From Bryum argenteum (Eukaryota > Streptophyta > Bryopsida > Bryales > Bryaceae): 64,000 nucleotides of DNA. This document shows, piece after piece, positions 19,491 through 57,394 of this stretch. The position numbers were made by a program, and so were the translations under genes. The notes below the pieces were generated by a model. The model was not told the DNA's origin and searched no databases. It was given only the letters and a program-made list of their open reading frames with translations. Location: contig CM073330.1 in assembly GCA_037043015.1 (NCBI GenBank), forward strand, positions 15,766,512 through 15,830,511. Reading direction: 5' to 3'. Position 1 is the first letter of the stretch; each line of letters opens with the position of its first letter.

Positions 19491-19494
19491 CGGA

Positions 19495-19524
19495 GGGTAG
19501 AAGCACACTAAGGTGGGTGCACTT
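19495..19524 (+). repeat. Left terminal inverted repeat of the giant DNA transposon
   Basis: Starts GGGTAGAAGCA and contains CTAAGGTGG and GCACTT. It pairs with 37420-37448 on the opposite strand (GGGTTGAAGCA, CTAAGGTGG, GCACTT). About 24 of 29 positions agree, with one 1-base gap. Confidence 0.85.
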
Positions 19525-19724
19525 TCGGACAGCCTATTGTACTAAATTTGTGGTAAAAGTCAAACTCTTTTGGAGATTCAATTCAAGCTATGCACATTGA
19601 GTATGAATGAATTTTTTAAACATTTAGAGGGCTGACATGTGGTGTTGCAGGTGGTGTGCTTTAGGATCCTCGATCCTCGATGCTCACTTTTTTTTGGAGG
19701 CTGTCAGGGAATTTATTTTTCTGG

Positions 19725-19895
19725 CACAGTTACCGGCGATCACCAGTCGCTGGCGATTAGGAAACCGGTGACCACCAGTTATTTGCGGATTGGGTTTTGG
19801 CAGTTGGCGAGCCATTAATTGGCTCATTAAGGCGGGAGCAGCGCCACCGGTGATCACCAATCACTTTGTCTCCACACCGGTGATCACCGGTGAAC
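19725..19895. promoter_or_regulatory. Subterminal palindromic repeats in the giant transposon
   Basis: Variants of the palindrome CCGGTGATCACCGG cluster here: CCGGCGATCACCAG, CCGGTGACCACCAG, CCGGTGATCACCAA and CCGGTGATCACCGG. Such clusters beside a transposon end are often transposase-binding sites; that role is inferred. I did not find the same motif at the right end. Confidence 0.5.
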
Positions 19896-20212
19896 TCCGT
19901 CTCGCACCTCTGTTGGCGTGGCGGCGCTCAATTTGAAACTCCTTCTGTTTCTCTCGCGGGGAGCTCGCGCAGCGGGTGCGCTGTTGTTGCGTTGCGTATC
20001 GCCTCGTCGTTGGGTTAGAACTAGGCGGGGTTTAGGATAAGGTAGTGGTGTAAATGGAATTGAGGTCAATGTTGTGATTTTTCAGAGGAGCTGCTCTTGC
20101 GGGAGCGCTGTTGGTGCGCTGTCGGTGCGCTGTTGTTGCGCTGCTGGTCGTCGTCGTCGTAGGGGTTAGAACTGGGCGGGTTTGTTACTTACGCAGTTAG
20201 TTAGGGTCACCA

Positions 20213-20377
20213 ATGACGCAGCTGCTGCAAACAGCGTTTGAAATGGAATTCTTCGCTTCGAGCCCCATCGTCGAGATATGCGTTCTAGCCTTGATAGTCG
20301 CACTTGTAGCCTCGATAGTCGTGCTCTTCTATCTCCACAAAAGAGAGAGGTCGAACAGGGAGTTAGTGCAGGTTTAG
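20213..20377 (+). CDS. Putative 54-residue single-pass membrane peptide
   Basis: An ATG-to-TAG frame encodes 54 residues: a short N-terminus (MTQLLQTAFEMEFFASS), a hydrophobic stretch of about 20 residues rich in Val, Ala, Leu and Ile (about residues 20-41), then a basic cytosolic-type tail (HKRERSNR). It lies inside the giant transposon, upstream of the SET gene on the same strand. It could be an independent gene, an upstream ORF in the SET mRNA leader, or chance. I recognise no family. Confidence 0.35.
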   Translation: MTQLLQTAFEMEFFASSPIVEICVLALIVALVASIVVLFYLHKRERSNRELVQV

Positions 20378-20389
20378 GAAGTTATTGAG

Positions 20390-21044
20390 AGGTGATAGCC
20401 CGGGCTGTACGCTGATCGTTAGAATTGGAATTGGTGGAATCAGTTAGAATTGGTGGCTGCACAGTATGTTGATTCTCCAAGCATCGGTAGGATTAGGGTT
20501 TTGGGGTTTTGCATTGATGCATTCTGTGTTTTGTACGCGGGTTGCACAGGAGTGAGATGAGGAGGAGTGGAGGAATGTGTGGGGTGCTGGACGTTGTTAA
20601 CGCCGGTCTCTTTCGGCCAGGGCTGCCGAAGGTGCTGCAGTTTACGGTGGAGTGGCTGCGAGAGTGCATGGCTTCTGAGGTGAAAAGCAAGGCCGAGGTC
20701 GAGCATTCACGGTAAGGCCGAGGTCAAACATTTACGGTGAGTTCAAGCCTAGACCTGCTTTTCTGAGGGTACGGGGTGCTTTCGGTGGGGGACAGGATAA
20801 TCTCTAGTGATTGTGTGAAGATCATACACAATCTCCTTGACTTTTGGCACGAACCCCTATCTCTTCCGACTTGACAGTTTAGGGTCATGCAATTAATTAG
20901 ATTTGCGGTTAGGCTTTATTGCAGAAGCCCGGTTGGACATTTAACCATGAAATTTGCTCCTCAGTTCCCTCACTTGTTCATATGTGTTTGCTTTCATTTT
21001 GCTACCTTCCTTTCTATCGGTGTGCAATCTCGCAGGTTTCCAGC
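20390..21044 (+). other. Presumed 5' UTR exon and leader intron of the SET gene
   Basis: GC-rich sequence without a convincing protein frame. Donor-like sites (CACG|GTAAGG near 20712, TACG|GTGAGT near 20739) and an acceptor-like pyrimidine run ending CTCGCAG (near 21035) just before the SET gene ATG suggest a spliced leader. This is inference from splice-site shape only. Confidence 0.4.
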
Positions 21045-24000
21045 ATGGTTCAGCCCACCACTAACGGAGAGAAGGCAGGGGAGAAGTCTACCTCAGCTGG
21101 GAAGCAGCGGGATGAAGAAGCTGCTACCGACTCCGAGGAAGAGCAGGAAATTTTTGACATTGAAGGAGCTCTTGCGAAGCTCAAGGAACCGCCTCCTGTG
21201 CTGCACATTGAGGACTTCAAGACAAATTTTCTGCTTGAGAGCACTGGCCAGAACCCGCATCGCTTTAAGAAGGGTGAGGTGGCGGAGGAGCTGGTCGTCG
21301 GGTTGTTTGGGAGGCGCTGCGGAAGAGGCGGCCGCGCAGGGTACAAGTGGCAGGACTGCACCGACAAGGGCGTCCTAGCGAGGGTGAAATATTTACACCC
21401 AATTGTGTACCAGCATGACAAGGACACGATGCCAAGTTTTTTGAAAATAAAATTCGTTCAAGGCATTGCACTGGAGCACGTCGGAGGGAGAGGGAAGGTG
21501 AACTGGGCCGCCTACGACCAGGAGACTAACCACACCCAGCGACAACGATGGGATTCACATCGAGCAAAGGTGCTTCTTTGTAAACAGAAGGACATGGAGT
21601 TAACCCAAGATGGCTTCAAGAAAGTGAAGCTGGAAAAAGGCGCAGGTTTTCAAGGAAAGGGAGGGTCACCGAGGCGGGTAAGTAACAATCTCATATGGTG
21701 TCGAGGTTGATACTTTGTTAAGTATGCTCGTTTTGTGACTTGCTTGGTTGTGGCACCATTTGTATTCAAGTAGCACAGGGTAGTGTCAGGGACACGGAAA
21801 CAGATGATAAGAATATGTGGAAACTAACAAGAACTGACAGGAGCTTGAATTAACAAGAAGAGTACACGAACAACAACAAGAGAGATGAGCTAGAGCTCCA
21901 AGAGATGCGTTGTCGAGACTGAAGTTGCCCTCAGCCTCGACTCCTATATATACTAGCTAAGAAGAAGGTTCTCCAGAACCTTCCTCAACCTAGGACCTTC
22001 TAGGACCTTCCAAGAACTTCCAAGACCTTCCAGAAGCTTCCAGGGCCTTCCGGAAACTTCAAGGACCTTCCAAAAACTTCCAGAGACTTCCAGGAACTTC
22101 CAGAAGTTTTCGGAAGCTTCTAGAACCTTCTAGAACCTTCCTAAGTTGTCTACCTAGTACGTGGCCGTGACACAGGGAATCTTCAAGGAATCTTTGAAGA
22201 ATCTTTTAGAGAATCTTCGGAGAATATTTTAGAAGAACCTTCTAGAAACTTCTTGTGTATGTCCGTGACATCACCTCCCCTTCTAGCTTCGAGGTCTCCG
22301 AGAAGCAACGTTGTTGTTAGTCAATACCAACGCAGGAAAATGAAAATCTGCCGCATGACATCTGCAATAAACTCCAATTGTTGTTCACGAGGCAAGTGGT
22401 TCATCGGTCCTTGAAGCCAACGATAGTGGCCGACGCCTTCCACTTCCCACAAGCGTGAACTTACGTGTCTTCGTTATGGAATTGTCGCAAACACACCTTT
22501 CGCGAGACCATTCAAAGCGGGCTCGACCTCAAATACAATCACCGGCGATCGATTGCTCGGAATCCTCCGTCGGCGTCGTGGCGCGAGGCGGTTCTTCATC
22601 TCCAGGTCGCCTTCGAGAGTTGGTTGGTTGAGATGGCATAACTGGTATGCTATCTATCTCTTGACTATCCATGACTAAAAACCAAACTATGACTATAGAG
22701 AAATTCTATCTAGAACAAAATATGTAAATCAAATGTGAATCAAGGTTGTGTTCACTCTCCCCCTTTTATTCTCCTGAGTGGGCAAGCGTCAGAGAGAAGT
22801 TATCGTCGGAAAGACTTAGGTTTATGAGGATATCGTTGATGAAATTCCTGTACCTTTTCCGGCGCATTTACAAGATTTTCGGCATGTTCCCACGTTCTTT
22901 CATTGATGTCGTATCCGCTCCAATGCACAAAATACTCCAAGTTTCCCCTTCTGCGCCGTGAATCCAGACCTTATCCACCTCATATTCCTCGTGGTTCTCA
23001 ATTTCGATACTAGGTGGCGGCCCTCGCACTCTTCCCGGAAAAGTCGACTCTCGATAAGGTTCCAATAAAGACACGTGGAAGACTGGATGTACCTTCATAG
23101 TAGCTGGTAACTCCAACCGATACGCCACTAGATTGATTTGTTTCTGGATGGCAAATGGTCCCAATCTTCGATAGTCCAACTTATCACACGGCCGCTTGGT
23201 CTTGATATTCCGTCGAAGCAGCCATACTTTATCTCCGATCTTGAAAGTAGGTGCCTCATTCCGAAATTTATCTGCGGACGCCTTGTACGACTCTTGGGCA
23301 GTTTGCAATTGAAGTCTCAGCGTTGCTTGAAGTTCCGATAGCTGCTTCACAAAATCTTCTGCTGCTGGGTTGTTATTGGCCACTGAATTCCATAAATCAA
23401 GCTTCGGGTGGTATCCGTAGTTGGCAAAGAATGGTGTTTGTTGGGTCGACGTATGAATAGTGTTGTTGTAGGCAAACTCGGCAAGCGGTAGATACTCGAT
23501 CCAATCGTCTTCTTGGCGATAGTTGATGGTGCAACGTGAGATCTTTGCTCCAATACTTGATTCACCCGTTCCGTCTCGTCCGTCGGTTTGAGGATGAAAT
23601 GCCGAAGAAAGCTTGATATCCACCTTCAATATCTCAAATAGAGATTTCCAGAACTTGGAGACGAACTGGGTTCCGCGATCCGACACAATATCATCTGGCA
23701 AGCCGTGATAACGATATACATTATCAAGAAAGAGTCTTGTTGTATCTTCGCTCGACGATGTCTTCTTGCAAGGAACAAAATGCGCCATCTTCGTCAGCCG
23801 ATCTACCACAACAAAGATGCTGTCAAACGAGTTTGAAGGCGGCAGGTCCGTAATGAAATCCATGGAAACTGAAGACCATGGTCGATGCGGGATAGGCAAT
23901 GGCTGCAAAAGTCCATAGGGGCGATGCCGAGGGTTCTTCGACCTTGAACAAATATCACAAGAGAGAACAAACTCCTTCACATCCTTCCACATTTGGGGCC

Positions 24001-27000
24001 ACCAGAAGTCTCGCGAAATAAGCTCCAATGTCTTGTTGTATCCAAAATGTCCTGCAGCTGGAAAGTCATGGCGTGATTGGAGGACTCGAAGTCGTGTTCG
24101 TCCCTTAGGAATATACAGTCGCTCTTCAAAGTACAAAAGATCTCCCTCCACCTTGAACTTGTCATTATCAGCACGCTTCTTGATCTCGAGAGCTACAGAA
24201 TCTTCAATTGTCGCAGTACGTATCTGGTTAAGGAAGTCCGTATCAATTGGCATGACAGTAGCGCAAATTCTAAAATGCTCCGGTTTCAGCAATGTGGTGC
24301 ATTGTTGATCAAACGCCGCTTTCTTCTCGACCTTTAGGCGCGGATACGATCTCCTCGATAAGGCATCGGATAGTCCTTGTTGCTTCCCAGGCCGATAGGT
24401 AATAACAAAGTCAAATCGTGACAACGACATATTCCACCGAGCTTGACGTCGATTCAAGACTCGAGCCGACATAAAGTACTCCAAATTCTTGTGATCCGTG
24501 TATACGGTCACTTTGGATGTGCTGTGCCGCCGAGAAAGTGTCGCCACTCTTGGAAGGAATCTACTATGGCAAGAAGTTCCTTATCGTGGATTTCATAATT
24601 GATTTCAGCAGCAGAAAACTTTCGAGAATAGAACGCCACTGGATGAAGCTTCCCGTCCACGTCCATCTGTGAAAGTACGGCTCCCAAAGCAAAATCAGAA
24701 GCATCGGTCTCCAAATAGAAGGCCTTTGTAAAGTCAGGATGTACCAAGATTGAGCTGTGATAAATGCCATCTTGAGGTCTTGGAATGCCTTTTCTCGCTT
24801 GAGGTCCCCATTCGAGCTTGTCCTTACAAGTCAACCGAGTGAGTGAGTGGAGCGGCGACTCGAGAATAATTCTTGATGAAGATTCGATAGAAGTTAGCAA
24901 ATCCAAGAAAACATTGTACGTCTCTAACCGTCTTGGAACCTCCCATGATACAATTGCTTCCACCTTCTTAGGGTCCATCTTCAAAATGTCATGTAGTGCA
25001 ATGAACCCTAAAAACTCCATCTCGGTTTGGTGGAATAGGCACTTCTCCAACTTGGCGTAGAGTCCTCGTTCTCGTAGTTTCTCGAGGACCAAACGAACGT
25101 GCTTCTCGTGCTCTTCTTCGTTTTTGGAAAATATCAGGATGTCATCCAGATAGATGACAACAAAGTCGTCAAGGTGCTCCCGAAAGATGTCATTCATCAT
25201 GTGTTGGAAAACAGCCGGAGCATTGGTAAGGCCAAAAGGCATGACATTATATTCAAAATGGCCATACCTTGTACGGAACGCTGTCTTCCACTCGTCTCCT
25301 TCCTTGATCCGTACGAGGTTGTAAGCTCCCCTCAGATCAACTTTTGTAAAGATCTTTGCACGCCCGAGCTGCTCCAAGAGACCAGAAATCAAGGGTAACG
25401 GATAACGATTTTTCTTAGTTACCTTGTTGAGGCCTCGATAGTCCACGCACATTCGTAAGGAGCCATCCTTCTTCTTTACAAATAAGATCGGTGCCCCAGC
25501 TGGCGACTTTGAATGACGAATGAAGTTCTTCGCTAGATTTCGTCAATGTCTTTTTCAGACTCCGCTAACTCGGTTTGAGAGATTGTAGATTGGGCCAAAA
25601 GGCGGTTGTGCTCCTTCTTGCGGTCTATGGCGCGGTCGTATGGCCGATGCTCGGTAGTATGTCCGCGTTCTTCTTCAAACACGTCCTCAAAATCCTTATA
25701 TTGCTGCTGGTATGCTTGCCGTCGAACTCTTTCTCCGTGCTAGTTGAAATTTGCATAGATGACAAAGGGTGCTGCTTCTTTGGATGATCGTACGAACGCC
25801 CTTGCTCCAATAAACAATGGTTTCCCTATCTTGGGATGTCTACTAGGTTGGCTCTTGGAATGTTCTTTGGAAAAAGTCATTTTCCGCAACTTCCAATCTA
25901 TGGTAGGGTTATGTTGTTCTAACCAAGAGAGACCTAGGATGACAGGGTTTGACGGGGTTCTAATGACATTAAAAACGACGTAACTACTATGGTCCTTAAA
26001 CGCCACCTCTATAGGTACTGATTCATGTAGGTGTGTTTTGCCAGGACAATAAAGGTCGTCCATCTATCACCTCTACATAAACAGTTTGGACTTACGTACT
26101 AGACGAATCTTGTGGAGCTTAGCAAATTCTTCATCTAAAAAACAAGTAGATGCTCCCGAATCTAATAGAGCTAAAGTTTTGTGTTTTTGAGGACCAAGAG
26201 ACAAGGAATTGTAAAACAACGGGCGGGTTGGATGAGAGAAAGAGGAACCCGATTGTTGTTGTGGCATTGAATCGTCGGCCCGCATGGTTCCTATCGTAGT
26301 TGGGCATCGTCGTTTTCGGGATCACCGCACTCCTAGTCTTAACAATGCGCCGGTTACGCTTCTTGGGGCAATTTCCAACCTTGTGGCTTCTTCTCCGCAA
26401 TACAAACGAGTTCTTCTTCCATACGCCGTTTCTTCTCTTCCGGAGTAAGAGCTTTGACACGTGCGCGTCGATTTGCATGGCTTCGCGCTCCGAATGAGAA
26501 CTCAAATTGTTTGCCGACATACTCGTGGTGTAGCGACTCGTTTGGTATTTTGGGCGCCGGTCTTTGACGATTTGGAATAAACGGTTGTCGCACTTTATAG
26601 CTTGGCTAATGGCTTCGTTGAGCGTTTGCGGATCGGGAAGAGATAAAAGTAGGTCCTTCACATCATCCTCAAACCCCAATAAAACCGACTCACCAATGCT
26701 TCTTCGCCCTGATTGATGTCACTAGCTTGATTGTCTAAAATCCGATGCGTAGACTGATGCAGAGCGCATTCCTTGTCGTAGTGATCGGATCTTTGTTGTA
26801 GCCCATCGGACCTTGTCATGTTCGCCAAATGCTTCTGCAAATGCCTCCAAGACCGTCTCAAAGTTGCTCAGAATTGGTGATCGTTTCTCGAACAAGGGAG
26901 CAAACCACGACAAAACTTGCCCTGTAAGCAGAGTTCCAACAAGTCCAACACGCGCCTCCTCCGTCGGATATCGTTCAGGCTGTAAAACTGTTATCAACTT

Positions 27001-30000
27001 GATTTGGTTGACAAAACCTCGAAACTTGGAACGCGTTCCGTCGAACTTGTCAGGAAGACTAACTCTAGGCTCCTTCCGTTGTTGAATCATTGGGTTTTGT
27101 TGAACCAAATGTGTAGTCGCCTGAGACTGGTGAATCCTGGATGATGTTATCCCGGATGCTCCGTCATTGTGAAGTCTTGCCATGGCTCCTTCTATCTCCG
27201 CTTGTCTATGTGATAATGCAGCAAGAGCACTCATGATGGCGTCCAATTTGGATTCCAAATTTTCAGCCATACTAACGTCTTGATCTTTGACTAAATCTAC
27301 GAAAGAAAAGAAAAAATTTGACAAGAGAACAATATTGGTTTAGAGGAGGGTAATCCGCAACCTCTAAAACACTAGCACACCTTCGAGAAGAGGGGTAATC
27401 CACTCTCTAACAAGAAGGGACTAACTCTGATATTTGTGAGAAGGTAGTCTCGACAAAATCTGAGGGACACGGAAACAGATGATAAGAATATGTGGAAACT
27501 AACAAGAAGCGACGGGAGCTTGAATTAACAAGAAGAGTACACGAACAACAACAAGAGAGATGAGCTAGAGCTCCAAGAGACGCGTTGTCGAGACTGAGGT
27601 TGCCCTCAGCCTCGACTCCTATATATACTAGCTAAGAAGAAGGTTCTCCAGAACCTTCCTCAACCTAGGACCTTCTAGGACCTTCCAAGAACTTCCAAGA
27701 CCTTCCAGAAGCTTCCAGGGCCTTCCGGAAACTTCAAGGACCTTCCAAAAACTTCCAGAGACTTCCAGGAACTTCCAGAAGTTTTCGGAAGCTTCTAGAA
27801 CCTTCTAGAACCTTCCTAAGTTGTCTACCTAGTACGTGGCCGTGACACAGGGAATCTTCAAGGAATCTTCGAAGAATCTTTTAGGGAATCTTCGGAGAAT
27901 ATTTTAGAAGAACCTTCTAGAAACTTCTTGTGTATGTCCGTGACAGGTAGTCGCTAACTATAATTTTCGCAGTGGATTGTACAGCAAGAATCTGAAGTGT
28001 GTGCGTCGAGAATACCAAGTCGCTTTGAGGAAGCTGCTGACTCGCGTACGCAGGAGAGGGTGTCGCAAATGACTCAGCTAGTGCAAGTACTGAACGATGA
28101 AATGAGGGAGTTGCATTCAGCCTTGGCGCGAGCTCAAGGACGAAGAGATCAGGCTGCGCAAGAAGCAAAGAGCATCGAGCTGTTTCTTGCAAGCCTAGAG
28201 CGTCAACTCGCAGGGATGCAAACTTCGGTTCCAGCGAGTGACGTAGAGTTTGTGGAGGCAGAAACAACGAAGTCCATTATGGGGAGGATGAAGGCCGACT
28301 ACGAGACGAAGCTCGTAAATTCAAGGCAAGACGCTGACAAGAAAGCCGTGGAGCTGCAGCAGTTGAAAGCAAGTGTCGCCCTCAAGCAACGACAATTTTC
28401 AGCATTGCAAGAGGAGGTGGCCAAACTGCAGAACGGGGGTCGGCCGCGTTCTATGCTACCTTGGCCTCTCAGGTACCCCAAGTCAGCCGGGTCTACTCTG
28501 AATGACACTTACCTATCGATTACACAGTGCTCATTGTGTGAGTGTGAGTTTCCCGATTTCGATATTGTTGTAGCAAATTGCAAACACCTGTACCATCCTT
28601 GGTGTTCTTTAGTTGTTTTTAGCAAGGGGAAGAAGTGTGTAGTAGAAAGTTGTATTGGGGAAGCAAGCGCAAATTGGCAGAAGAGCTTCGGCTGGTTGCT
28701 ACCAAGTGAGGATTTCAAGCCACAAGAGCAGGACTTTCAGGCCGTTCAGGGCGTCCTTCCAGAAGAAAAGCTTACACACGGTGAAGTTCAACCATCGGAT
28801 CGGAAAAGGAAAGGCATAGCAAAATCAGGTATGTATCTAATCTGGTACTTTGTAATGGTCCATGTTCTTATAAATGCATGTTTTAAGTACAACACTGGTA
28901 CTATTAGGATACTATACGTTGAACTTTGATGTGCTGGACTATTTAGGTGTGAAGTTTGTAGATAGTGTATCTTCAGAATGGTTCAATTAGTAGTCTAGTT
29001 ACAAAATATATGTACAACCAATGCACCAGTTAGGTATACGTGACTGAATTGTGTGAATTGGTACTAGTGATGTGAAAAATATGGAAACTTAGTAATCTAT
29101 GTACAAAGCCAGGGTACATGGGTAGAAGAAGTGTTTGTGGAAACATGTTTGATACTCAAGCTACTTACTTTACAGAACAATAAGTATATGATGTGTTCTT
29201 TAGTATGAAACTTTTGTACTTACTCTGTTTCAGGAACAGCTTAGGTACACTTCAAGGAATGTATAAGCTAAATTTTTGTACTTATTGTGTTTCATGAAGA
29301 GCTTAGATACACCTCAGGCACTTCTGAAGTACGTATGAAGTAGTTAGTGTACTTTTAGTAAGTGTAATAGTTAGTGGCTCACCATAATAGATTCTGAATT
29401 CACTTCTGTAGTACATATGGAGTAGTTATGGAGTAGTTAGTGTAATAGTTAATTGCTCACTATGATATGCTCCTAATTCACTTTTGTGCTATGTGCAGGT
29501 CCTCTTCCCAATGCCGGGGCTGCAAGTTCAATGAAGGTGAGCGTGAAGGTGGACTCACAAAAAGAATTTGTGATGCCAAGCCCACAGCCGGCGCGGGTGG
29601 CTCAAAAACCCGCCGAGGAGCAATGCCAGGCGAAACTTGACACACCTATAGTACCCACGGTGTCACTGAATCAAGGTAAACTTATATACATTTTATAACA
29701 AGTCCAATTCAATGTTTGCAATGCATTGGCCTTCAAATACTAATCCTGCTTTTATGAATCATTGCAGGCATTGTGAGAGGAAGTCCAAAAGAATTTTCCA
29801 ATGTATCAGACGATGAGTCCCTTGAAATGTCTGCTGAGGAGGGTTCAGGAGAGGACAACGATGGAGAAGGGGATGTGTCACTGCCGGTGCTAGAAGTGGC
29901 AGACAAAGCCCATAATCACGTTGATTGGGCTGTGCTAGGGCTCGTAGATAGTTTGCAGGCGGGGTCTTCAAAGGAGCCCACCTCCCAGAATACAACGGAA

Positions 30001-31835
30001 GTGGTTCTAGAAGGTGATTGTGTGCCAATTACAGAGCCTGGGGTGGACGTGGATGGGCCTTCCGTCACCCACACGTTTGCTGTTGTTGAACGAGTGAACA
30101 CTCGTGGAAGGCGACGCCATTCCGAGGAGGAGCACCACGCGGTTGTCACCTCTCCCGCTCAGCCGAGTAATAACCGCGGTAACAAACGGCGTTCTCTCTC
30201 GGCCAAGGATTCCTCTACAGAAGACATTCTGAACCGAGAGGTTGAGACGAAGGCCACGGAGATGGATATTGAGGGGACTGGTCCGGGAGGCGCAAAGAAG
30301 GTGAAGATGATGGAGTCACTTGCCCCTGGCAAAGGGAAGAAAAAAAATGGTAAAACGGTGACTTGGTCGAAGCAGTCTATTCTGGTTTGTTTTGTCGCTA
30401 TATTTAGGGTCTTGTCAGCGAAGTCACTTGCAAGCTTGGGTCTGTGAGTTTTGTATGATAAGATCCTCTTGATCTTGATGATTTTATTAATATGAAAGCG
30501 TTTTGATCACTATGGGTTTGTGTGAATAATTTTTTTTCTATTTGGGCAGGCTCCTTGGGTAGATTGCAAGGACCTGTCTAGAGGGACTGAACAACATCCG
30601 GTTCCAGTGTTTAGCAACGTGGAAGGCCCCAGCCACATGTTGCCATTCACATATGTAACAAAGAGCGTTTTCTATGAAGTCGTAGTTGTAGAAAATGCTC
30701 CAGAAAGCAGGTGCAGCTGTACGGGGAGGAACTGCTTGCTGGGTTCAGCAGCATGTCAGTGCGCATTGAAGAATGGAGGGCGTTTTGCTTACACCCTAGA
30801 AGGAAGGTTGGCCCCTCACATGTTGAAGCAGGTAAGAGATTGATTCAACAAATGTACTTTTTAGAACTTGTTTTATAGAATGCTTACTCCGATTGCTTAC
30901 TGAATTGGTCCTCCGATTGCTTACTGAATTCTGTTGCCTTGTAGGGGGAGCCACAGCCAGTGTACTGTGACAAGGGGCACGGATGCTACAGGGGCAGTGG
31001 TGAAAATGGTGCAAAGTTGGACCTCAAGGTTACTTGTCATGGGCATGTGCCGAGAAAGTTTATATGGAAGTGCAATTTGATGTGTGGTTGTCATATGGAG
31101 TGTGGTAACAGGGTCGTTCAACATGGCAAGAAGGTGAAGGTCGGGGTCTTTTGGACAGGAGAAAAGGGTTGGGGGGTTCGAACATTTGAGCCCATCCCCA
31201 TTGGTTCATTTGTGTTTGAGTATGTAGGAGAGATTTGTAGCAATGCAGAGCTCATTAGCAGGCATGCTAATGAATCACATCTTCACGGCATTTGGTATGC
31301 TACCGGACTTGAACGCGGGATTTGGAAAACCGAGGCTGGGGTGAACGACAACGAGGCTCTGTGTATAGACGGCTTCAAATACGGCAATGTCGGGAGATTT
31401 GTCAACCATCGGTGCGAAGATGCCAATTTAATGGACATCCCAGTGAGGATTGAAAGCCGTGATCCTCATGTTTACCATGTGGCATTTTTTGCCAATAGGC
31501 ATATACATGCCCTTGAGGAACTAACTTGGGTAACAAAATCTTCATTCCTTCATTTTTCTTATCGTTTGAACTTCCTTATTCTTTGATGTCATCTGCTGCT
31601 GGAGCTGGTTTAGTACTTGTTGTTCTCAATCTCTTTTGTGAAAAACTTACTTCTGATGTGGACAACTGGATATGTGCAGGACTACGGGACGGCTTTTTGG
31701 GAAGCACCAGAGTGTGGTCCTTGTTCTTGCAAAAGTATAGTTTGTCGTGGTAGGAAGCTGGGAAGCACCTCGGCCCCACCTCGAACATCTTACAGGAAGA
31801 TCTGCCGCAAGCTATTTGGGCAGAAGGGTGATTAG
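21045..31835 (+). CDS. SUVR-type SET-domain histone methyltransferase fused to coiled coil and RING-like finger, transposon-borne
   Basis: Predicted to methylate histone H3, probably Lys9, in chromatin. Seven coding exons: 21045-21677, 27973-28828, 29499-29675, 29768-30384, 30550-30831, 30945-31529, 31680-31835. All have GT-AG borders and matching phases, and sum to 3306 nt (1101 residues). Residues 1-211 are an unrecognised domain. About 239-367 are coiled coil. About 397-438 form a RING-like finger ([17 protein letters not shown], then two more Cys). An acidic, basic linker follows. Residues about 762-890 are a SUVR/SUVH pre-SET ([21 protein letters not shown]). The SET domain has [15 protein letters not shown] and EELTWDYG, then a post-[11 protein letters not shown]. 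All catalytic landmarks are present. Plant SUVR1/2/4 are the nearest relatives I recognise. Gypsy element 1 sits in the first coding intron. It is convergent with the transposase gene. A split into two genes is possible but the phases argue against it. Confidence 0.8.
21784..22270 (-). repeat. LTR of gypsy element 1 (3' LTR in coding direction)
   Basis: 487 bp, nearly identical to 27461-27945. It contains an uninterrupted alternating GAA/TTC heat-shock array at 22113-22140 and many further TTCnnGAA pairs from about 21990. Confidence 0.9.
27461..27945 (-). repeat. LTR of gypsy element 1 (5' LTR, promoter-bearing)
   Basis: 485 bp. Read on the minus strand it begins TGTCACGGAC, passes a heat-shock-element array, and then a TATA box (TATATATAGG, plus positions about 27618-27629) before the internal region. 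Confidence 0.9.
27788..27815 (-). promoter_or_regulatory. Heat-shock-element array in the LTR
   Basis: Six alternating GAA and TTC triplets at exact 5-bp spacing (GAA-GC-TTC-TA-GAA-CC-TTC-TA-GAA-CC-TTC). Many looser copies follow in the neighbouring 200 bp. It lies about 160 bp upstream of the TATA box in the element's own direction. Heat-shock factor binding is the expected function, as in the heat-activated plant element ONSEN; activity here is inferred. Confidence 0.75.
28829..29498 (+). other. Intron of the SET gene with internal duplications
   Basis: The second coding intron (670 bp) is AT-rich and contains partly duplicated segments, for example GGAGTAGTTA, TAGTGTAATAGTTA and GCTCAC-ATA-T repeated around 29320-29490. 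It also has many GTAC tetramers. No coding signal. Confidence 0.5.
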
Positions 31836-31862
31836 AATTCCAAGTCTTGTGTGCGTACATAG

Positions 31863-32200
31863 GAGACGCTGAGTATGTATGAGACACTAGACTTGAACTT
31901 GTACAGATTTGTACTCACACTGCATAGATATGTCAACGACTTCTGTACATTAGAGACGCTGAGTATGTAGGAGTCACCGGACTTCAAGTTGTACAGTTTT
32001 TGTACTCATAGTGCATAGATAATTCAATGACTTCTGTACATTAGAGACGCTGAGTATGTAGGAGTCACCGGACTTCAAGTTGTACAGTTTTTGTACTCAT
32101 AGTGCATAGATAATTCAATGACTTCTGTACATTAGAGACGCTGAGTTTGTAGGAGACACCGGACTTCAACTTGTACAAATTTTGTACTCATAGTGTATAC
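31863..32200 (+). repeat. 91-bp tandem repeat, about 3.7 copies
   Basis: GAGACGCTGAGTATGTA begins a unit at 31863, 31953, 32044 and 32135, so the period is 90-91 bp. Copies 2 and 3 are almost identical, copies 1 and 4 diverge. The array starts just after the SET gene stop and lies between the two convergent genes of the transposon. Confidence 0.85.
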
Positions 32201-32239
32201 GGATAACAAGCTGTGAACAGAGGGTGAGGAAATAGCAAT

Positions 32240-32354
32240 GGCTGAATTTATTGGCATGTTACTTACCTGAATAATTGGAATGTTACTTGGCTGAATTATT
32301 GGCATGTTACTTGGCTGAATTATTGGCATGTTACTTGGCTGAATTATTGGCATG
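32240..32354 (+). repeat. 24-bp tandem repeat, about 4.7 copies
   Basis: The unit is GGCTGAATTATTGGCATGTTACTT with slight variants in the first two copies, split here as GGCTGAATTATT plus GGCATGTTACTT. It lies between the convergent SET and transposase genes. Confidence 0.85.
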
Positions 32355-32784
32355 ATCAATATTTGACTCATATAGGATTGCTTATTCCAACAAATTTAGA
32401 CTTATGCATATCGTGAAGTAGGCATTTGATATGCATATTAGAACCATCCAAAATCAAATAAATGTCATGTCAAAACACATTCGCCTATGTACCACGAGAA
32501 TCCCAGAATAGGCCCAGTTTCGCAAAATAAAGGCTCTTATATATTTTTGATCTACTAAGTACCCATGGAGTGTCACATGCTCTAACTATTACAACAAGGC
32601 GCAATTTAGCCTGAAACCAATGGAAATCACCTTACACGCAATGAGATACTCAAATTAGAGGTCCTGAAATTAAACAAAAGGCTACTATCTCTTATCATTG
32701 TGTAAGTAGTACATGCAGTCACTATGGCGCTCATAACACCAGAGAATGTGCCTAAACGTGGGTCAAGCAAGAAGCTCCACATGG

Positions 32785-35700
32785 CTACAACTCTAAAGCC
32801 ATGTCCGTAGCCCACCAATTTCTGAGAGCTTCGTTGATTAGAATCTCTGTATCTCCACCTAACCTATACACAGCAGAATCACCCTTAACTACGTGAGAAG
32901 CCAAGACCATTGGAAATTTGCAATGTCTCACCAAATGCGCATCCACATGCGCTATGGGAGAATTATGAAGCAGGACATATGTATCAGAGCCCGAGCCATT
33001 CTTTTGATAGTATGAACCTGCTATGACATAGTCGCCCCTTCTGAAATCACCACCCCACGGACACATGAAATCTCTCTGGACTCGAAACTTGGGCTTCTGG
33101 CACTGGAGAATGTAAAACTCAACCCCCTCTTCATTGCCTTCCTCCGCTGGTATGACAAAGTTGTCGCCCACCTGAACAATATCCCCGTGGACTTCAGCAC
33201 CTCCAGTATGAGGCAATTCGGTTGGCTCTTCAGCTGATGCAATATGAGCTTGTACAGGTCGGGCAGATTTTGGCCTTAAGCGGACCACACGCCAATGGGA
33301 AACGTGTGTCTGCTGCTCACAATTGACCCAATCACGGTTAATACAAGGGGCGCAAAAGCATGACAATTCACGGACCAAAAGCACTGTTGGATCAGTTTCT
33401 GATTGTCCTAAAATTGAATGGAACTTGCTAGAGCCCGAAATCGTTCTACATTCCCACTCATTCGTTCTATCCACATCTTCTATACCAATGTGCCAAAACT
33501 CACGAGATATAGGCATCTCTTTTGACTGCTCATAGGAACTCAGAACACGGTTAGAGAATCTGGATTTCAGAAAATCAACTACATGCCTTGCATTTGCCAT
33601 CTCATCCTCTGGATGCTGGATCTGATGTATTAGGATGGCCCTCTTGATGACGGCGCCAGCCCCATCCCATTCACCTGCATTGATAAAACATGGCAACTAG
33701 TTAAGGCCTACATCAACCGAGCCCTTGCCACATGTTGCATGTACATTTTGTACAAAACATACCCATATTATTCAACCAACTCTACTCCATTTGTAGTACA
33801 AAGGACCTAAACCATGTCTCAAATGTAGTATGTATGTATATTGTACTCATCGGACCTGAAGTCCTCGTAAAATATACAAAACATGTGATGAATATACAAA
33901 AATTTGTACTCTAAATAGCAACTGGACTCTGAAGGGTACTTAACAAACTGTACTCATTCATTGAGTAACTAACTTGCGTACTCCTCTTTCACTATAAGTA
34001 GTAGGCACACCGTAACGAAGACACTAAGTGTATTCCTAGTACAACTAACTTAGCCCAATTGTACGTTAGAAGGTGGAAACTAGCAAACCAGTCAACTTGT
34101 ACTCAAAAGCTACTCAGTGTACACAACCCATTGCTCATTGCAGTACGTCATGTGTACTCTACTTTGCTTTAAGTAGAAGCCACACTGTAACCAAGACAGT
34201 AAGTGTACTGCTAGGTTCAAGTGTACTCCTAGATACAACTAATTCAACCCAATTGTACAGTAGAAGGTGGAAACCACCAAACCAGTCACTCATACTCAAA
34301 AGTTACTAAACGTACACAGCCTATTGTACACAGCTCATTGTAGTACTTGATGTGTGCTCCTCCAACACTATAAGAAGTAGCCACATACTTACCAAGACAC
34401 TAATTGTACTCGTAATACAACTATTTTAGCCCAATTGTATAGTATAAGGTGGAAGCTAACAAATAGTCACTCCAAATTTGGTTGTTTTTCACCATTACTA
34501 CTATTAATACCCTGAATTCTTCACCTTGCATTATAAAGAATTAAACACAGGATCCAAATTTTTAGAATGGGAAACAAAACCATATGTTGAGAGGGTACCT
34601 TTCCCATGTCCACTGCCGAAATAATTCCACCTCATGCTGCACCCTGTCAGACCTGGGTATCGAGCAACAAAGTACATTGCGCGAGATCCCTTGAATTGTG
34701 CTGCGCAGCCGTCACTATACACCCAGTGCTCCATCGGCCTAAAGCTGGAATTCAACATCCAATTCCAATGCAACAACAAACAGTGTTGCACAAAAAGCGT
34801 GTCGTGTTTTTTGTCATCAGAATTGTAGTAGTGGGTATACTTTTGTATGCCACCATCCTCACCTGCTTCATTTGGAGGCAATCTCCACAATTTTATGTGA
34901 ACTAATATGCTAATAGATGTTGAATACCAATGCATCGACTGTATTTCGTTTTGTATTGCAAAACTGTAATTCTCTGCAAAATCGATGTGTGATATCAAAA
35001 CACCTTCAGGTAAATTGTTCATCATCATCCTACACTCAGAATCCTGCCAGTTTGCCACAAAATTGTGGGTTATGAAATTTCCCACCTTAGATTTAAGGTA
35101 AGATACAAACTCACCTGGGGAAGTCTCTTTGTGAACCTGCTGAATTCTTTTACAGTCACGACCGGTATCCTCATGAACCCCAATAACAACTTGCTCTAAG
35201 CATTTCCACTTGACTGTTTGGTCAGTACTAAAACTCAACTCCTGAGGGCAGAAGTTGAGTTTCTTTACCCCGCATTCACTACAATTACCCATGACGCAAT
35301 CTAATTTGTACCACTTATCAAATTCACCCTTTGGACACACGCAAGATGTCCATAACATTGTCAATCTCTGAAACGCATGAGAATGCGCATCACAATGCCC
35401 CTGTCCATCTCCACAAATATTGCACGCACAATTGCAAGATTGAGATAAATGTAAACCTCTAGAACACAACCTAAGATCATTCAACCCTGTTCGCATGATA
35501 TCCATTTCTGTGTGATAGATACAACAGCACGTATTTTGATCATTGAGAGTTTTTACGTACCAAGGCTTTAAGTACTCAAAAGCCCTTTGTTTGATTCTGC
35601 ACTCGGGGTGAGCGTCCCTGAAATTGAGAAAGAGTTGGGTCTGTCAAAGAGAAGCAGACCACACATCAGATAAACAAACCCTGGATCGTGTTTTTCGGTG

Positions 35701-36592
35701 GTACTCAAAGATGCATGAAAAGCTTCAAAATACAAAGGAACACAAGCTTATTTTTCACTTCTAACTGAGTCATCAAGCAGTAGTGATTAACAACAACTGA
35801 GTACATAAGGCTTACTTGAGTCTCAGTAAGGTAGTGCGTTGCATGGACAGAGTAATCGTTTTTCCCAATCCTTTTTCGAGTGACATCCTTTTTGTTGGGG
35901 CTGACCCGAGTTTGCTGAGTCCACCACAAATGCACCTTGTCCTTCACATATTGAGTCACTCCAGCACGCTTTCTCCTCTCTAGAAGAGCAAATTGATTCG
36001 CAGGCTCAACACCGATCCTCCTGCCTACAGCAGCGTAAACGTTTCGTGGGTGAATCTGAAGTACACGTGAGAGAGTCCTTGAACTGTCGCATCCCTCGCT
36101 TACTGCAGCATCAAGAAGGGCTCCCTTCCTCGCCAAAAACACTTTTGAGTTTGCCGTCTTCACTGACTGCAACTCCGTTCTGAAACTCTCAAGGAAAACA
36201 AAAATTGACTTTGCTTCACAAGGCCTGGGATAATACTCCGGTAGTTGAGGCCATATGGTATTGTGATTCAGAATCTTTTCCACTACCAAGCGCCTGCAAC
36301 TTAGAGTTTCGCACGCCTTCAACTCTTCGTTGATCGCTCCTGCAAGTTTGTTTGAAAGCCGACACGAAGAGCGTTCAGTGATTTGGACGGGCTGTGGATC
36401 TTCATCATGGGAGAATAGAAGCGCCGCCTGCGCTGCAGCTGCAAGTTTTGCGCGCCTCCTCGCCTGCCGAATGCGAGCGGCTTCGGCGCTCACCACTCAC
36501 TCAGCTTCCGCCTTCGCAATCGCTGCTGCCCTAACTTGGGGTCCAAGACGCGAGACCCCACGACGCCTTTCTGCCAATCGACTACTTCCCAT
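32785..36592 (-). CDS. Zinc-rich DDE/D-type transposase of the giant DNA transposon
   Basis: Three minus-strand exons: 36592-35816, 35640-34599, 33674-32785, with GT-AG borders and compatible phases (2709 nt, 903 codons). The N-terminus is basic with a helix-turn-helix-like region. The second exon has CCCIYHTEM and CNCACNIC Cys clusters, then ISHIDFAENYSF and VYSDGCAAQFKG. The next block, WNYFGSGHGKG, ends at the exon border and the third exon continues EWDGAGAVIKRA. The two Asp and the Glu/Asp after HGKG look like an RNase H-fold catalytic triad. Proteins with these motifs are scattered through animal and lower-plant genomes as uncharacterised families. The C-terminus has a second Cys cluster (ELSCFCAPC) and a BAH-like beta-rich domain. 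One in-frame TGA lies near codon 32, so this copy is probably inactive unless translation starts downstream. The Sola-like assignment is tentative. Confidence 0.7.
33700..34560 (-). other. Intron of the transposase gene, GTAC-rich with internal duplication
   Basis: The 924-bp intron between transposase exons 2 and 3 contains partly duplicated segments: AGAAGGTGGAAAC recurs near 34069 and 34263, and TACTCAAAAG-TACT, CAACT-A-CCCAATTGTA recur. It has many GTAC and TGTACTC motifs. No coding signal. Confidence 0.5.
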
Positions 36593-37419
36593 CGTTTTCA
36601 GCCACTACTCCAAACAATTTTACAGCAAAACACCAACAGCAACTAACGATCGTTTACAGCCACTATTCCAAGCAATTTCACAGCAAAACACCAACAACAA
36701 CAAAGGATCCCTGAGAAGCAAACGGACCTGCTCGGCCGTCGGAGGAAGAGACTAAAGCCGCCAAATTGATGAAAACATCCTCCGTCAGTCACTTCAAAGC
36801 TAACTAGAAAATGGCGACTACACGCACTGTCAGAGTCATTATAGCCTCGGCGGCACTATCGAGGTAGTGGGGGGTACTTTTGGTAGAGAAATTGTACCTT
36901 TTCAAGAGTTCAAGGTGTGTAAGAAGTCCAGCGTGTACTCAAATTTTCACAAAATCAACTTGTTACCCAGACGAGGATTCCCTTAAAACAACTGGATACT
37001 GAAAAAAAAACAAAGTTTGGATCATTTTTGAGGAAATTCCACTCAAAACCAACTTTAGCACTTTGACCAATAAATTCGCAATGTGCAACTAAAAATTATC
37101 ACAACTTTCAATATGCATTTGAAGCCTTAAGACGTGTTCTTCCATAATCCGAATGTGAATTTGTCCTATTCTATGTTAAACAACATGTAATTTGTACTTT
37201 TGTTGTTTTTTTCCAGACAGTGATGTACTTTCTGAAACTTAAAAAAGTACATATATTTATGGGTTCCTAATGTTTTTTGAAGAGATGCAAAATAGTTTTA
37301 TAATATTCATTAGTATTGCCAACATCATTGCCAAATACATTAGTACATTTGTTTTAGAATCTCCACTATTTTGGACATTGAAGTTGAAGACCCCCTGAAA
37401 TTCCTGCTCGTGACGTACT
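36593..37419. other. Right subterminal region of the giant transposon
   Basis: No gene. It presumably holds the transposase promoter (reading leftwards) and subterminal sequence. A direct repeat CAATTTTACAGCAAAACACCAA / CAATTTCACAGCAAAACACCAA-type pair lies near 36615-36695, quoted here as AATTT-ACAGCAAAACACCAA. Confidence 0.4.
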
Positions 37420-37448
37420 AAGTGCTCCACCTTAGCTTGCTTCAACCC
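37420..37448 (-). repeat. Right terminal inverted repeat of the giant DNA transposon
   Basis: On the minus strand it reads GGGTTGAAGCA, then CTAAGGTGG, then GCACTT, mirroring the left end at 19495-19524. CGGA follows at 37449-37452. Confidence 0.85.
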
Positions 37449-37452
37449 CGGA

Positions 37453-42610: not shown

Positions 42611-44690
42611 TAGCCAGACACCACGGTATACACCCACGGGTACCTAGCACAGGGAGATGGCAAGTTCGACGTCTACGAAATCACACGCAACAACCCGAAG
42701 ATGCCCGACCCCTGGTTCGGTAGGATCCGTGGGATACTAAGTCAAGTCTTTTTCTGGAATGACTGCAATGCAGTGCACCCGGATCAACTTGCATTGTGCA
42801 TAATGGCGGGCCGTGGGAAGAAGATCAACTGGGGCAAGCTGGTCGACAGAAACGCGGTGAGTCAGATATAGGGCCACGTTCACAACGATGCGTACGAAAG
42901 CCCCATCGCCCCGTTCCTGACACAATTCATCGGGCATTTTCTGGATTACCACAGGGTAAACCACCACCCGTGGCCCATGGGCACATTTTTGGATGTGCAG
43001 CGCGAGATAGCAGAGTCCGCACACACGAAGACCACGCCGACACACCGAGGCAAGAGGCCACGCACCGAGGAAGCCGGTGTAGACAAAGGAGGCCACATGG
43101 AGGTGGCCAGTACATCCACCGCCACACAGTTTGGTCCTCGCACCACGGAGTTTGAGACAAAGAAACGCACCGTGGAGACGTGCATGGAGGAAATGCTCAA
43201 TTTCCTCTACACCACCGAGCAACAGCAACAGGCAGCCACGGCTAAGCAGAAAGAATGGGAGATTCGGCACAAGCGCCACACTGCTCAGCTAGTACAGACC
43301 ACCCAGGCCGCGGCTCACAAAGCCATGGAGGACTATAAGCTGGAGGTACAGCGTCAAACAGAACAACTCCAAGGGCAGCTGACTTCCCTGCAAAACCAGC
43401 TCAATACGAGGGATTTGGAGTTACAGGCTGCCACGGAGAAATCCCGGTCCTTCGAAGATCAGAGCACCAGGGATCGCGAGAGGATTGAGAGATTGGACCG
43501 CCAAACAGCTGAGCTCGTAGCACAATGCAAGGCTTTAACCGAGGAGCTGACTCTCAAACCCAAGACCCCGTCCTCAAACACCGTGGCCATGGACTCGATA
43601 CAACAGCAGCGCCAGGAGATCGACAACGCCCGTGAGAATTTCGAGGCCAACAAGGTGGCATGGACGAACCATGCGGCCCGGATAATCGCCACCACGGCAT
43701 ATCAGATGCTGCGATCCACGTCCGAGGACCCCCCCCCCCGCGTTATTTCTTGATCAGTGTACGGGTGACGCACTGATAACCTTGGAACTGGAAAACTCAG
43801 AAAATACCTGGGGCAGCCAGGGAGACCCCTTTCTTGGCGAAGACGAGGAGGAGACGCAGCCCCAGCCCATGGAAGAACCGGAGCTGACACAACCCCGGTC
43901 ACATGTCCACGAGGAGGATTACGACGACATATAGGAGGAGGATACCCGCGCAACACAGGGCCAAGCACAAACCGAGGACAGGGGCAGGGAAATCAACTCC
44001 GGGGAAGAGATGTATCAATACTCGACACGGATAGAAGAGGAGAGAGTAGACATACCCGAGGGGTTCACGGATCAAGAGCAGACTCTCCACCAATCTCCCC
44101 GGCACCATACCTCGGCGAATTCGCCACAATATCACCTCCCGGTCCTGTCACCACCAACACGATATGAGTCCCCAGTGAGGCAGAACCCCGATGGCACATA
44201 CCCGTGGCCGACGCGAGCGGAGTCCCCACTATCCCCCTCGAACCCCTTGCCCACGTTTTCACCATTGCGAGTAATACCGTCACCGATACCCTCCGCAAGG
44301 CACAGGCAAATTATCCTTCAAAAGGAGGAACAGGAAGGCTGGAAAGTGGAAGACGGGGATGAGGCCGGAGACGAGTCCTCAGAGTCCATGCTATTCGTGT
44401 TGCGGTACTTCCACGAACACCCCGATCTTGCTGCTCATTATACCAATTCCGAGGCAACCGGACGGCAATGCCCGGCATGTAATCGAACCCTGGGAGGCAC
44501 GGTGTTTGATGTGTATACCCACGCACTCAATTTCCGTGGAAACCACATCCTGATGCATCGTGCAGTGGCTGAAGCACTTCGGCGATTGTACAACGGTGAG
44601 GAGCCTCCTCGCAGCGGCCACCAATTTCTCCGAGAACAGGCCCGACCGAACAGGAGGCCCGCCCCCACGCGTCGCTAACCCAGCAATTCG
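42611..44690 (+). mobile_element. Extra 3' coding region of gypsy element 2
   Basis: Between the integrase region and the right LTR lie about 2 kb of additional coding-like sequence. It includes a long Gln/Glu-rich coiled coil (about 43200-43560) and a CPACNRTL...H...H zinc-finger-like motif (about 44470-44560). Several plant gypsy lineages carry an extra 3' ORF. I cannot match this one to an envelope protein or to any other named domain. Confidence 0.55.
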
Positions 44691-44723: not shown

Positions 44724-45515
44724 TGTTACCCGCCACAGCACCGCGGGTATCATCACCGAAGACCAGCAACCACGGGAGACCAAGACTTTACAGCACCCAC
44801 GGGGCTCGAGGCCGGGGCACAGTGAGCAGAGGACCACGATGATCGAGACCGCGGACACAGGCAGTTAAGGCCGGAGAACACCGCAGAAGGGTTAGGTTTT
44901 ATTATAAATAGAGTTAGAGTTACACAATAGGGAGCTCCCTGTGATGCACGAATGTAGTGATCAATAGCCACAAGCACAGTGTTGCGATCCTTTGTACCCC
45001 TTTTGGCACTCACGATTCAATGCAAGCAGGACTCAGTCCAATTCTACTCTAACCCCCACTTCTACTTGTATTCCCTCTCCTCTATCCTTGCTATCCTGTG
45101 TCCTGAAGTTCTAGTCCGTGTGACGTCCGTGGCACCGTGGGAGTCTGTGTCGAAGCCGTGTGTCTCAGCGTGCACTACGTGGTCGCGAAGCCACCCACGC
45201 GGAGTCACTACAGACAGCCTCGCATTGCTCCGAGCTCCTACCGTGGCCGAGGAGTTACGCAGTAGAAGAACATCGAACAGAAGGCTAACCCTGGGACTCG
45301 ACTTGACGAGCACTGCCCTGCCCTCGCGGGATTGACCCGCCCCGACAGAACTAATCACAGGGTGATTACGGCCACCGGTCAACGGCTGCCCTGACATACC
45401 CGGACCGTGGTTAACAGAGGTTGAAGCCTACGGGCCCCCAGTTCTCGCCCCGTCCACTGCCCCCATTTTGCCCCCTCGCACCTCGGGCACCTCCATACCT
45501 GTACCCCGGCTAACA
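44724..45515 (+). repeat. Right LTR of gypsy element 2
   Basis: 792 bp, the same ends as the left LTR. The few differences from it cluster within about 30 bp near 45428-45455. Confidence 0.95.
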
Positions 45516-45749
45516 ACATTATACTCTCCAACCAAATTAGCAATACCATGCCTCTACCAGGCACATACATCACACTTCCACACGCACCAAAAACACCATC
45601 ATCTCTTCTTTACACTCAAAAATTTCACAGTCACACGGAAAAGCAACTCCATGTTCAAAACAGTCCTTTATTATGAAATAACTACCCCATACACAGCTTC
45701 TGTGCATGCACAGAAGAACTTGGATTCCAACATAACCACACTGCTACCT

Positions 45750-46270
45750 CTGCACCACGGCGTCAGTCACACCGATCTGATGCTGGCGCTCCGCATTCTA
45801 CGGAACCACAACTTTCAAAATGAGTCTGGTTTCAGCTCCCCAAACACACCTCCGAAATTCACGACCCACGCGCACCACTCGCACCCGAACTGCATCATAA
45901 GGATCTTATCTTCTTATCCATCAACTTGCTTAGCTGGGAGACATGCATTCCACTCGATGCGCCCACAGCAACTTACAACAGGTACTCAACATGACACATA
46001 TACCGAAACTCTGCACCACGGAGTCAGTCACAACGATCTGCTGCTGGCGCTCCGCATTCTACGGAACCACAACCTTCAAAATGAGCCTAGTTTCAGCTCC
46101 CCAAACACACCTCCAAAATTCTCGACCCACGCGCACCACTCGCACCTAAACTGCACCATAAGGATCTTATCTTCTTATCCATCAACTCGCTCAGTTGGCA
46201 GACATGCATTCCACTCGATGCGCCCACAGCAACTTACACCAGTCACTCAACATGACACATATACCGAAAC
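45750..46270 (+). repeat. Two tandem 261-bp monomers in the LINE 5' region
   Basis: CTGCACCACGG begins a unit at 45750 and again at 46011. The two copies (45750-46010 and 46011-46270) are highly alike throughout. They lie upstream of ORF1. Tandem 5' monomers acting as promoters are known from mammalian L1; the same role here is inferred. Confidence 0.85.
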
Positions 46271-46970
46271 GGCCAAAATATATCCCAGGCACCGTAAACC
46301 TCACCCATTTCCTGAATCTCCTATCCAACACCACCAACACCATTTACCAACTCAGATTACTTCCCACCGAGAAATCTACATTCGAATCTCTAACACACAA
46401 TCACCACCTCTCATCGTCAGTCCCACTCTGCGTCCACCCAAACCGCCGAAAAGCACAACCAGAAAAAATCGGCACCTTTCAGAATACCACCGTACCCTCG
46501 GCTTTTACACCTCGACAGTTACAACACTATGGCACATTCTTCCTCCCTTAACTCTTCCCCTACAAACACTGAAATCACACTCTCAAACCACCACATTACA
46601 CTTGTCAATAATTAACTCAAAAATCACACAACCCACCCATCTCAGACGAACGAAAAACCTCCACGCATCTCGACAGCTCATACATGCCCCTGACACGCCT
46701 CGAAGAGACAATCGTAAATCCCAAGAACTTACCAAGCACCCCCCATGGATCACTACAGCCGCCTCCACACATTCCTCAGGAAATAATTCCCCTATAAATA
46801 AGACCCTGACTCTGAACAACCTCACTCATGCCTGCAAACCACTGTGGTACTACACTCTCCCCTTTCGCACACTGTTTCTCATATCACCCTACACTTCTGA
46901 TAGTATATTGTCTAACTTCTTATATTCTTGCATTACCTGTACAGATCGTTACCCGTATCCTCTTCGCATC

Positions 46971-56873: not shown

Positions 56874-57394
56874 GAAATAAACAATCAACCTCTATACCGC
56901 ACTTGGCTATCACCAAAAGAATTATTTCCACGAAACTACCCAACAGCCATAGAACACAACCTTAACCTTCTAACTAATTACTACACACAACAAAAACACA
57001 AACTCTATAAACATACCATCGATACATTCTTCACAACACCACAAATGAAAGACACCCGCTTCATTCCACCCCCAACAAACATACCCCTTACACAAATATA
57101 TCTCTAAGATTGCAACCCTAACAAAGACATCCTCACAAACTCCCCCACCATACAAGTCTTAAACGAAACCGCGCATCTATTCGACAACACAGGCCAGTTT
57201 CTTCTTACTATCCCCACAACACGGCTCACATGGCTATGGAAACAATACCACACACACCTCAACACCAACCACGGCCTGACACCCCCTACCCAATCCTTCG
57301 AAACCGAAATCATCTTACTCTACAAGCGTTATCACCACACACTCTCCAAAAAGGAATCCCAAAACAACAAACCATCACACACTTCCCACACCCA

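Follow-up and report, generated by a model that had tools for sequence, protein, structure and literature searches.

Methylation of histone H3 at lysine 9 (H3K9) is a main silencing mark on plant transposons. The cited source for SET genes in the transposons of oomycetes is reportedly a contribution by Kojima and Jurka to Repbase Reports in 2014. SET histone methyltransferase genes are stated to occur in HarbingerS and MuDR DNA transposons of Phytophthora in the introduction of a 2025 paper (PMC12730594), and passages of the same paper describe TET/JBP dioxygenases in fungal DNA transposons (Kyakuja, Zisupton, Dileera and others), for which an escape from silencing was proposed, as well as the plant Vandal families of MuDR, in which a protein controls the silencing of the element itself. 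A SET domain joined to a transposase is also known from SETMAR (Metnase; PMC4593633). Here we analyse a stretch of 64,000 nucleotides from Bryum argenteum (contig CM073330.1 of GCA_037043015.1, positions 15,766,512 to 15,830,511), referred to below as the window, in which positions 19495-37448 are occupied by a DNA transposon. With a probability of roughly 85% we read it as one damaged copy of a large and diverse transposon family with two convergent genes, one for a transposase and the other for a protein with a SUVR-type SET domain.

Architecture of the element

A preliminary description of the window had reported inverted ends, a CGGA direct repeat and gypsy gag sequence on both sides and, between them, a seven-exon SET gene convergent with a three-exon transposase gene, and all of these features were confirmed. 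The element lies on the contig labelled C10 in our analysis, and its imperfect inverted ends start with GGGT, the left one, GGGTAGAAGCACACTAAGGTGGGTGCACTT, at 19495 and the right one, GGGTTGAAGCAAGCTAAGGTGGAGCACTT when reverse-complemented, finishing at 37448. Joining the flanks minus one CGGA yields a single open gypsy gag frame, and the gag sequence is uninterrupted at the insertion point in 40 of 40 scored copies elsewhere in the genome (scored out of 211 candidates). A further gypsy retrotransposon, missed in the preliminary description, is nested in intron 1 of the SET gene, with long terminal repeats (LTRs) at 21784-22270 and approximately 27460-27945 and a 5-bp duplication, GGTAG. It is absent from all four sibling copies described below; without it the window element measures about 11.8 kb, and the siblings 11,736-11,847 bp. 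The features, in window coordinates, are the following.

19491-19494, no strand: left target-site duplication CGGA (sequence comparison of flanks)
19495-19524, plus: SET-side terminal inverted repeat (same end at four sibling loci)
21045-21677, plus: second gene exon 1, N-domain at about residues 54-190 (147 N-domain loci)
21784-27945, minus: nested gypsy retrotransposon in intron 1 (missing in four siblings)
27973-28828, plus: second gene exon 2, coiled-coil-like stretch and RING-like Cys/His cluster at about 28527-28650 (zf-RING matches below cut-off)
29499-29675, plus: second gene exon 3 (gene model)
29768-30384, plus: second gene exon 4, charged low-complexity region (gene model)
30550-30831, plus: second gene exon 5, start of Pre-SET (Pfam)
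30945-31529, plus: second gene exon 6, remainder of Pre-SET and the SET core (with NHRC), a conserved segment being altered by small indels in this copy (Pfam)
31680-31835, plus: second gene exon 7, final part of SET and the post-SET cysteines (Pfam)
32785-33674, minus: transposase exon 3, third conserved Asp
34599-35640, minus: transposase exon 2, first and second conserved Asp
35816-36592, minus: transposase exon 1, in-frame stop at codon 31 in the window copy
37420-37448, minus: transposase-side terminal inverted repeat (ends compared across loci)
37449-37452, no strand: right target-site duplication CGGA (flank comparison)

Between the convergent genes, at 31855-32354, the window also holds repeats with units of 91 bp (3.8 copies) and 24 bp (4.8 copies).

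Sibling copies and insertion sites

The genome (258.8 Mb in 25 contigs) was searched with the pattern of the ends, allowing up to two mismatches, and returned 223 matches as compared to 1 for the reversed control. Together with four more loci that show the same ends, all ten exons and their own 4-bp duplications, this excludes a pattern arising by chance. The preliminary description had named as confirmation that both genes recur at several loci, enclosed by these ends and with differing 4-bp duplications, and this is what was found. The four siblings carry seven SET exons and three transposase exons, with SET exon 4 partial at the two loci on contig C9, and their DNA is 97-99% identical to the window copy in the transposase and 92-97% in SET exon 6. 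Six more diverged elements, in two stretches each, and parts of eight further loci were fetched as well. Scanning 14 loci for ends gave ten pairs and, among partly fetched loci, two with one end and two with none. Nine of the ten pairs are bordered by perfect 4-bp duplications (CGGA, AGAA, CCAT, CTCA, CATT, ATAA, TGTC, GAAT and TCAA), and the tenth, at C10:7.81 Mb, consists of ends belonging to different elements. The ends of the family begin with GGGT or GGGC, and insertion duplicates 4 bp.

Paralogous empty sites were found for two of the three target loci examined, the window and C3:19.72 Mb. At the latter the junction was spanned in 24 of 28 rows, the other four being the locus's own two flanks and one copy split over two rows; at C10:8.36 Mb it was spanned in none of 41 rows, the right flank being repeated and the site having no full-length relative. 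Two of the three targets lie in repeated sequence and the third has this repeated right flank, and three sites are too few to speak of target choice. Judged by its inverted repeats, fixed-length duplications, empty sites and acidic triad, the element is classed as a cut-and-paste DNA transposon.

The searches also brought up some separate observations. Ends of several types (such as GAAGCATACTAGGGTGGATCACTT) occur among the 223 matches and may belong to further families or to short non-autonomous copies, and four same-strand matches about 9.8 kb apart at C9:3764748-3794171 resemble a tandem array of one element family. A relative of the C3:19.72 target, at C2:1183655-1185854, is interrupted near the same position by about 2 kb, maybe by another insertion.

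Genome-wide pairing of the two genes

We scored 150 of 334 candidates from a search with the SET exons (150 rows that merge into 137 loci), 150 of 373 from a search with a diverged SET sequence, from which 36 hand-picked loci were added, and 117 of 411 from a search with the transposase exons. A SET gene lies within 10 kb at 95 of the 117 scored transposase loci, and all 95 pairs are convergent, the two genes having been copied together many times; random placement averaged 1.8 and never exceeded 8 over 1000 trials. When only the first SET list is used, the count is 79 of the 117. Ten of the 22 transposase loci without a SET gene within 10 kb have one at 10.7-67.5 kb, and 78 of the 173 SET loci are unpaired with a scored transposase. 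As most transposase candidates were left unscored, the pairing counts are lower bounds. SET genes also adjoin transposases that are only 51-57% identical to that of the window. For genome annotation this means that at least 95 SET loci beside a transposase of the family are element genes or their remains, not host SUVR genes.

The second protein

The SET gene of the window encodes 1101 amino acids in an open frame, with Pre-SET and SET domains above the Pfam cut-offs. These form the end of a protein that comprises an N-domain, a coiled-coil-like stretch, a RING-like zinc site, a charged linker and the SUVR-type SET region. The N-domain, comprised in the first 190 residues, was located at 147 loci, at 96 of them upstream of a SET gene on the same strand and at 1 on the opposite strand (within 15 kb); its predicted structure, based on 8 sequences, has a mean pLDDT (predicted local distance difference test score) of 44.6 and is not interpretable. 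For the Cys/His cluster in exon 2, matches to zf-RING are sub-threshold only. The SET region thus forms the C-terminus of a larger protein of the element and is not loose cargo, which corrects the earlier notion of a chromatin writer carried as cargo.

The designation as SUVR-type was borne out by the best named relatives, plant SUVR2 and SUVR4, which are about 42% identical over Pre-SET and SET (among the best 120 listed per search). Closer relatives exist among unnamed proteins from metagenomes or transcripts, at up to 77% identity to a portion of the query, and these matches suggest that such elements occur in other organisms. Relatives of the SET part in the PDB are SUVH6, EHMT2, EHMT1, Clr4, SUVH4 and SETMAR. 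The N-H-x-C signature is kept at 16 of 16 fetched element loci (a check of the signature only), and the element SETs share the motif ELTW with the compared plant SUVR rows, including a SUVR4 row from Salvia. By sequence, the SET domain of the element is of SUVR type. WIYLD is missing from the Pfam matches of the window protein, which consist of Pre-SET and SET only, and a genome search for this domain identified one place, on contig C2 at 2.3 kb from a host SET exon. This is a separate host SUVR, and in the tree it groups among the land-plant SUVRs with weak inner support.

The transposase

Three aspartates of the transposase, D206, D289 and D331, are invariant in 44 aligned rows, and the predicted model with its structural matches, obtained from a second structural aligner, indicates an integrase-like DDD core. 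A Foldseek search against the PDB gave no match at E 0.001 or below, with poor TM (template modelling) scores, and no Pfam family matched above its cut-off. In a search of IMG/VR, 34 pattern stretches were retrieved, none of which was confirmed.

Divergence, selection and damage

Over 16 loci the distances among SET sequences agree with those among the transposases (Mantel r 0.897, 0 of 5000 permutations). In the transposase tree, a group with 98/98 support contains 21 rows, namely all 16 loci that bear a SET, 3 metagenome rows and 2 loci at which no SET was seen. One of these two is C3:2.08 Mb, where the sequence fetched runs out within a retroelement and a convergent SET is found 12.6 kb away. 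One subfamily retains the second gene but lacks its SET part: at C4:25.07 Mb the N-domain and the zinc parts are found, with no SET in the 12 kb read. A similar transposase with an N-domain is present at C1:15.71, C8:12.73, C8:3.70 and C3:26.89, and an N-domain with a convergent transposase at the candidate loci C11:4.73, C5:14.54 and C8:17.42, the apparent lack of a SET at all seven being judged from the scored lists. Outside the 21-row group, C2:34.40 Mb holds a relative of the N-domain (profile E 1e-9 in a one-sequence search) and a zinc site, and no SET was found at the locus. This one outside locus favours a gain of the SET after the C2:34.40 split and a later loss in one subfamily.

When two groups of close copies are compared with each other, the SET gene shows a ratio of nonsynonymous to synonymous substitution rates (dN/dS) of 0.30-0.33 and the transposase one of 0.19-0.25; within the groups the values are 0.29-0.51 and 0.42-1.04, respectively. 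SET frames are free of stops in two of the five close copies, the window and C9:6.35, and the stop at codon 31 of transposase exon 1 in the window is not found in the four siblings.

Several observations weigh against our interpretation. For the SET part alone, dN/dS between the groups is 0.22-0.63 on few changes, and because of this noise there is less certainty of constraint on the catalytic part than on the gene as a whole. By the gene model used, the transposase is interrupted by one or more in-frame stops in all five close copies, and small indels replace a conserved segment in the SET of the window. In view of the codon-31 stop and the altered SET segment the window copy is probably not autonomous, and an autonomous copy was not identified among these five. 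The Mantel figure is raised by the inclusion of near-identical copies. The subfamily lacking the SET seems to be multi-copy, so that the SET would not be needed for spread. Finally, a single clade of element and metagenome SETs was marginally rejected with a SUVH6/EHMT2 outgroup (approximately unbiased, AU, test, p 0.0425), and without outgroup the plant SUVRs as a single clade were not rejected (p 0.297), so that the SET may have been captured once or several times.

Other features of the window

In the gypsy element hit by the transposon, two more open frames follow the integrase at 42977-44678, with no Pfam match above the cut-off. The region 45468-59538 is probably a non-LTR element, with open frames for reverse transcriptase (54891-56873) and RNase H (57652-59538), and pieces of a Clp/AAA ATPase gene at 5260-7415 probably belong to a host gene.

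Proposed role and alternatives

In the scenario that we propose, an older protein of the element would have acquired a plant SUVR sequence. SET and transposase would then have diverged together, and one subfamily would later have lost the SET part. The second protein would recognise the element or its transposase, and its SET domain would change methylation at H3K9, or at another lysine, on the element's own chromatin, such that host silencing would be tuned in favour of the element. We tentatively consider this action on its own chromatin the most likely role. A more elaborate version is put forward with somewhat greater reserve: a host SUVR, joined long ago to a DNA- or transposase-binding protein of the element, may have become a self-encoded H3K9 writer that sets the chromatin of the element's own copies, possibly linked to ubiquitin through the RING-like site, which would make the silencing mark a tool of the transposon.

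It is rather unlikely that the SET part has little or no catalytic activity and functions within silencing complexes of the host as a scaffold or decoy. The precedent would be Arabidopsis SUVR2, for which the passages concerned show no activity and describe a function without catalysis, the catalytic sites being dispensable for silencing (PMC4260354), and the ELTW motif common to element SETs and the compared plant SUVRs would fit. This motif does not discriminate, since it is also found in the SUVR4 row from Salvia and Arabidopsis SUVR4 is active on H3K9, according to a passage of PMC7218100; the N-H-x-C signature retained at all 16 fetched loci argues against a loss of activity. Less probable again is a second protein that, as a writer or reader of H3K9 methylation, steers insertion, for example into heterochromatin or repeats. 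Its location beside the transposase at most scored loci and the two repeated targets out of three are in line with this, but with three sites, the third without a full-length relative, no enrichment over the repeat share of the genome can be claimed.

That the SET part is a mere passenger, a captured host sequence without benefit, we hold to be slightly more improbable still. The existence of a SET-less subfamily, the stops in many SET copies and the noisy dN/dS of up to 0.63 in the SET part between groups would agree with it; the whole-gene dN/dS of 0.30-0.33, the presence of SET genes beside transposases as distant as 51-57% identity, the fusion to an element-specific N-domain and the invariant N-H-x-C speak against it. 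Host SET genes lying beside unrelated transposases by chance or segmental duplication are a practically negligible explanation in the face of terminal repeats with 4-bp duplications at 9 loci, empty sites, 95 of 95 convergent pairs and a host SUVR with WIYLD that is a separate gene. A host gene adjacent to a transposon is ruled out by the target duplications and the empty sites.

Plants employ enzymes of this type to silence transposons. As the family appears to have kept one of its own, it can be tested on these elements whether transposons turn silencing enzymes to their own use, be it for anti-silencing, self-limitation or target choice, and the SET-bearing and SET-less subfamilies within one genome provide a ready natural comparison.

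Comparison with known systems

A literature search by titles and abstract openings, its scope lying outside Repbase Reports and most subscription journals, found no plant transposon with a SET gene among the matches listed, and passages of PMC13076208 and PMC5725981 contain nothing on SET genes in transposons. Within the reach of these searches the plant SUVR version is new, in agreement with the preliminary description, whose author knew of no described plant transposon with this pairing. As a kind, a SET gene in a transposon was already known, given the statement on Phytophthora in the introduction of PMC12730594.

By that statement, the HarbingerS and MuDR elements are likewise DNA transposons that took up a SET gene; the present family has a plant-lineage host, a transposase without a Pfam match above the cut-off and a 4-bp duplication. 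The fungal TET/JBP elements, as far as the passages describe them, also place an epigenetic enzyme beside a transposase, but theirs is a dioxygenase acting on methylated DNA whose gene moved between superfamilies, whereas here the enzyme is of histone methyltransferase type and the distances of SET and transposase agree. Vandal is a plant DNA transposon as well, for which the passage in PMC12730594 names no histone methyltransferase. Compared to plant SUVR2 and SUVR4, the window protein is about 42% identical in Pre-SET and SET to the best named rows, and WIYLD, present in most of the listed host proteins, was not matched in it. A 4-bp target duplication and a DDD triad are features of the Sola superfamily and are found here too, the likeness being one of these two traits. 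SETMAR, lastly, likewise combines a SET domain with a transposase, but it is one chimeric host protein and not a mobile element with two genes.
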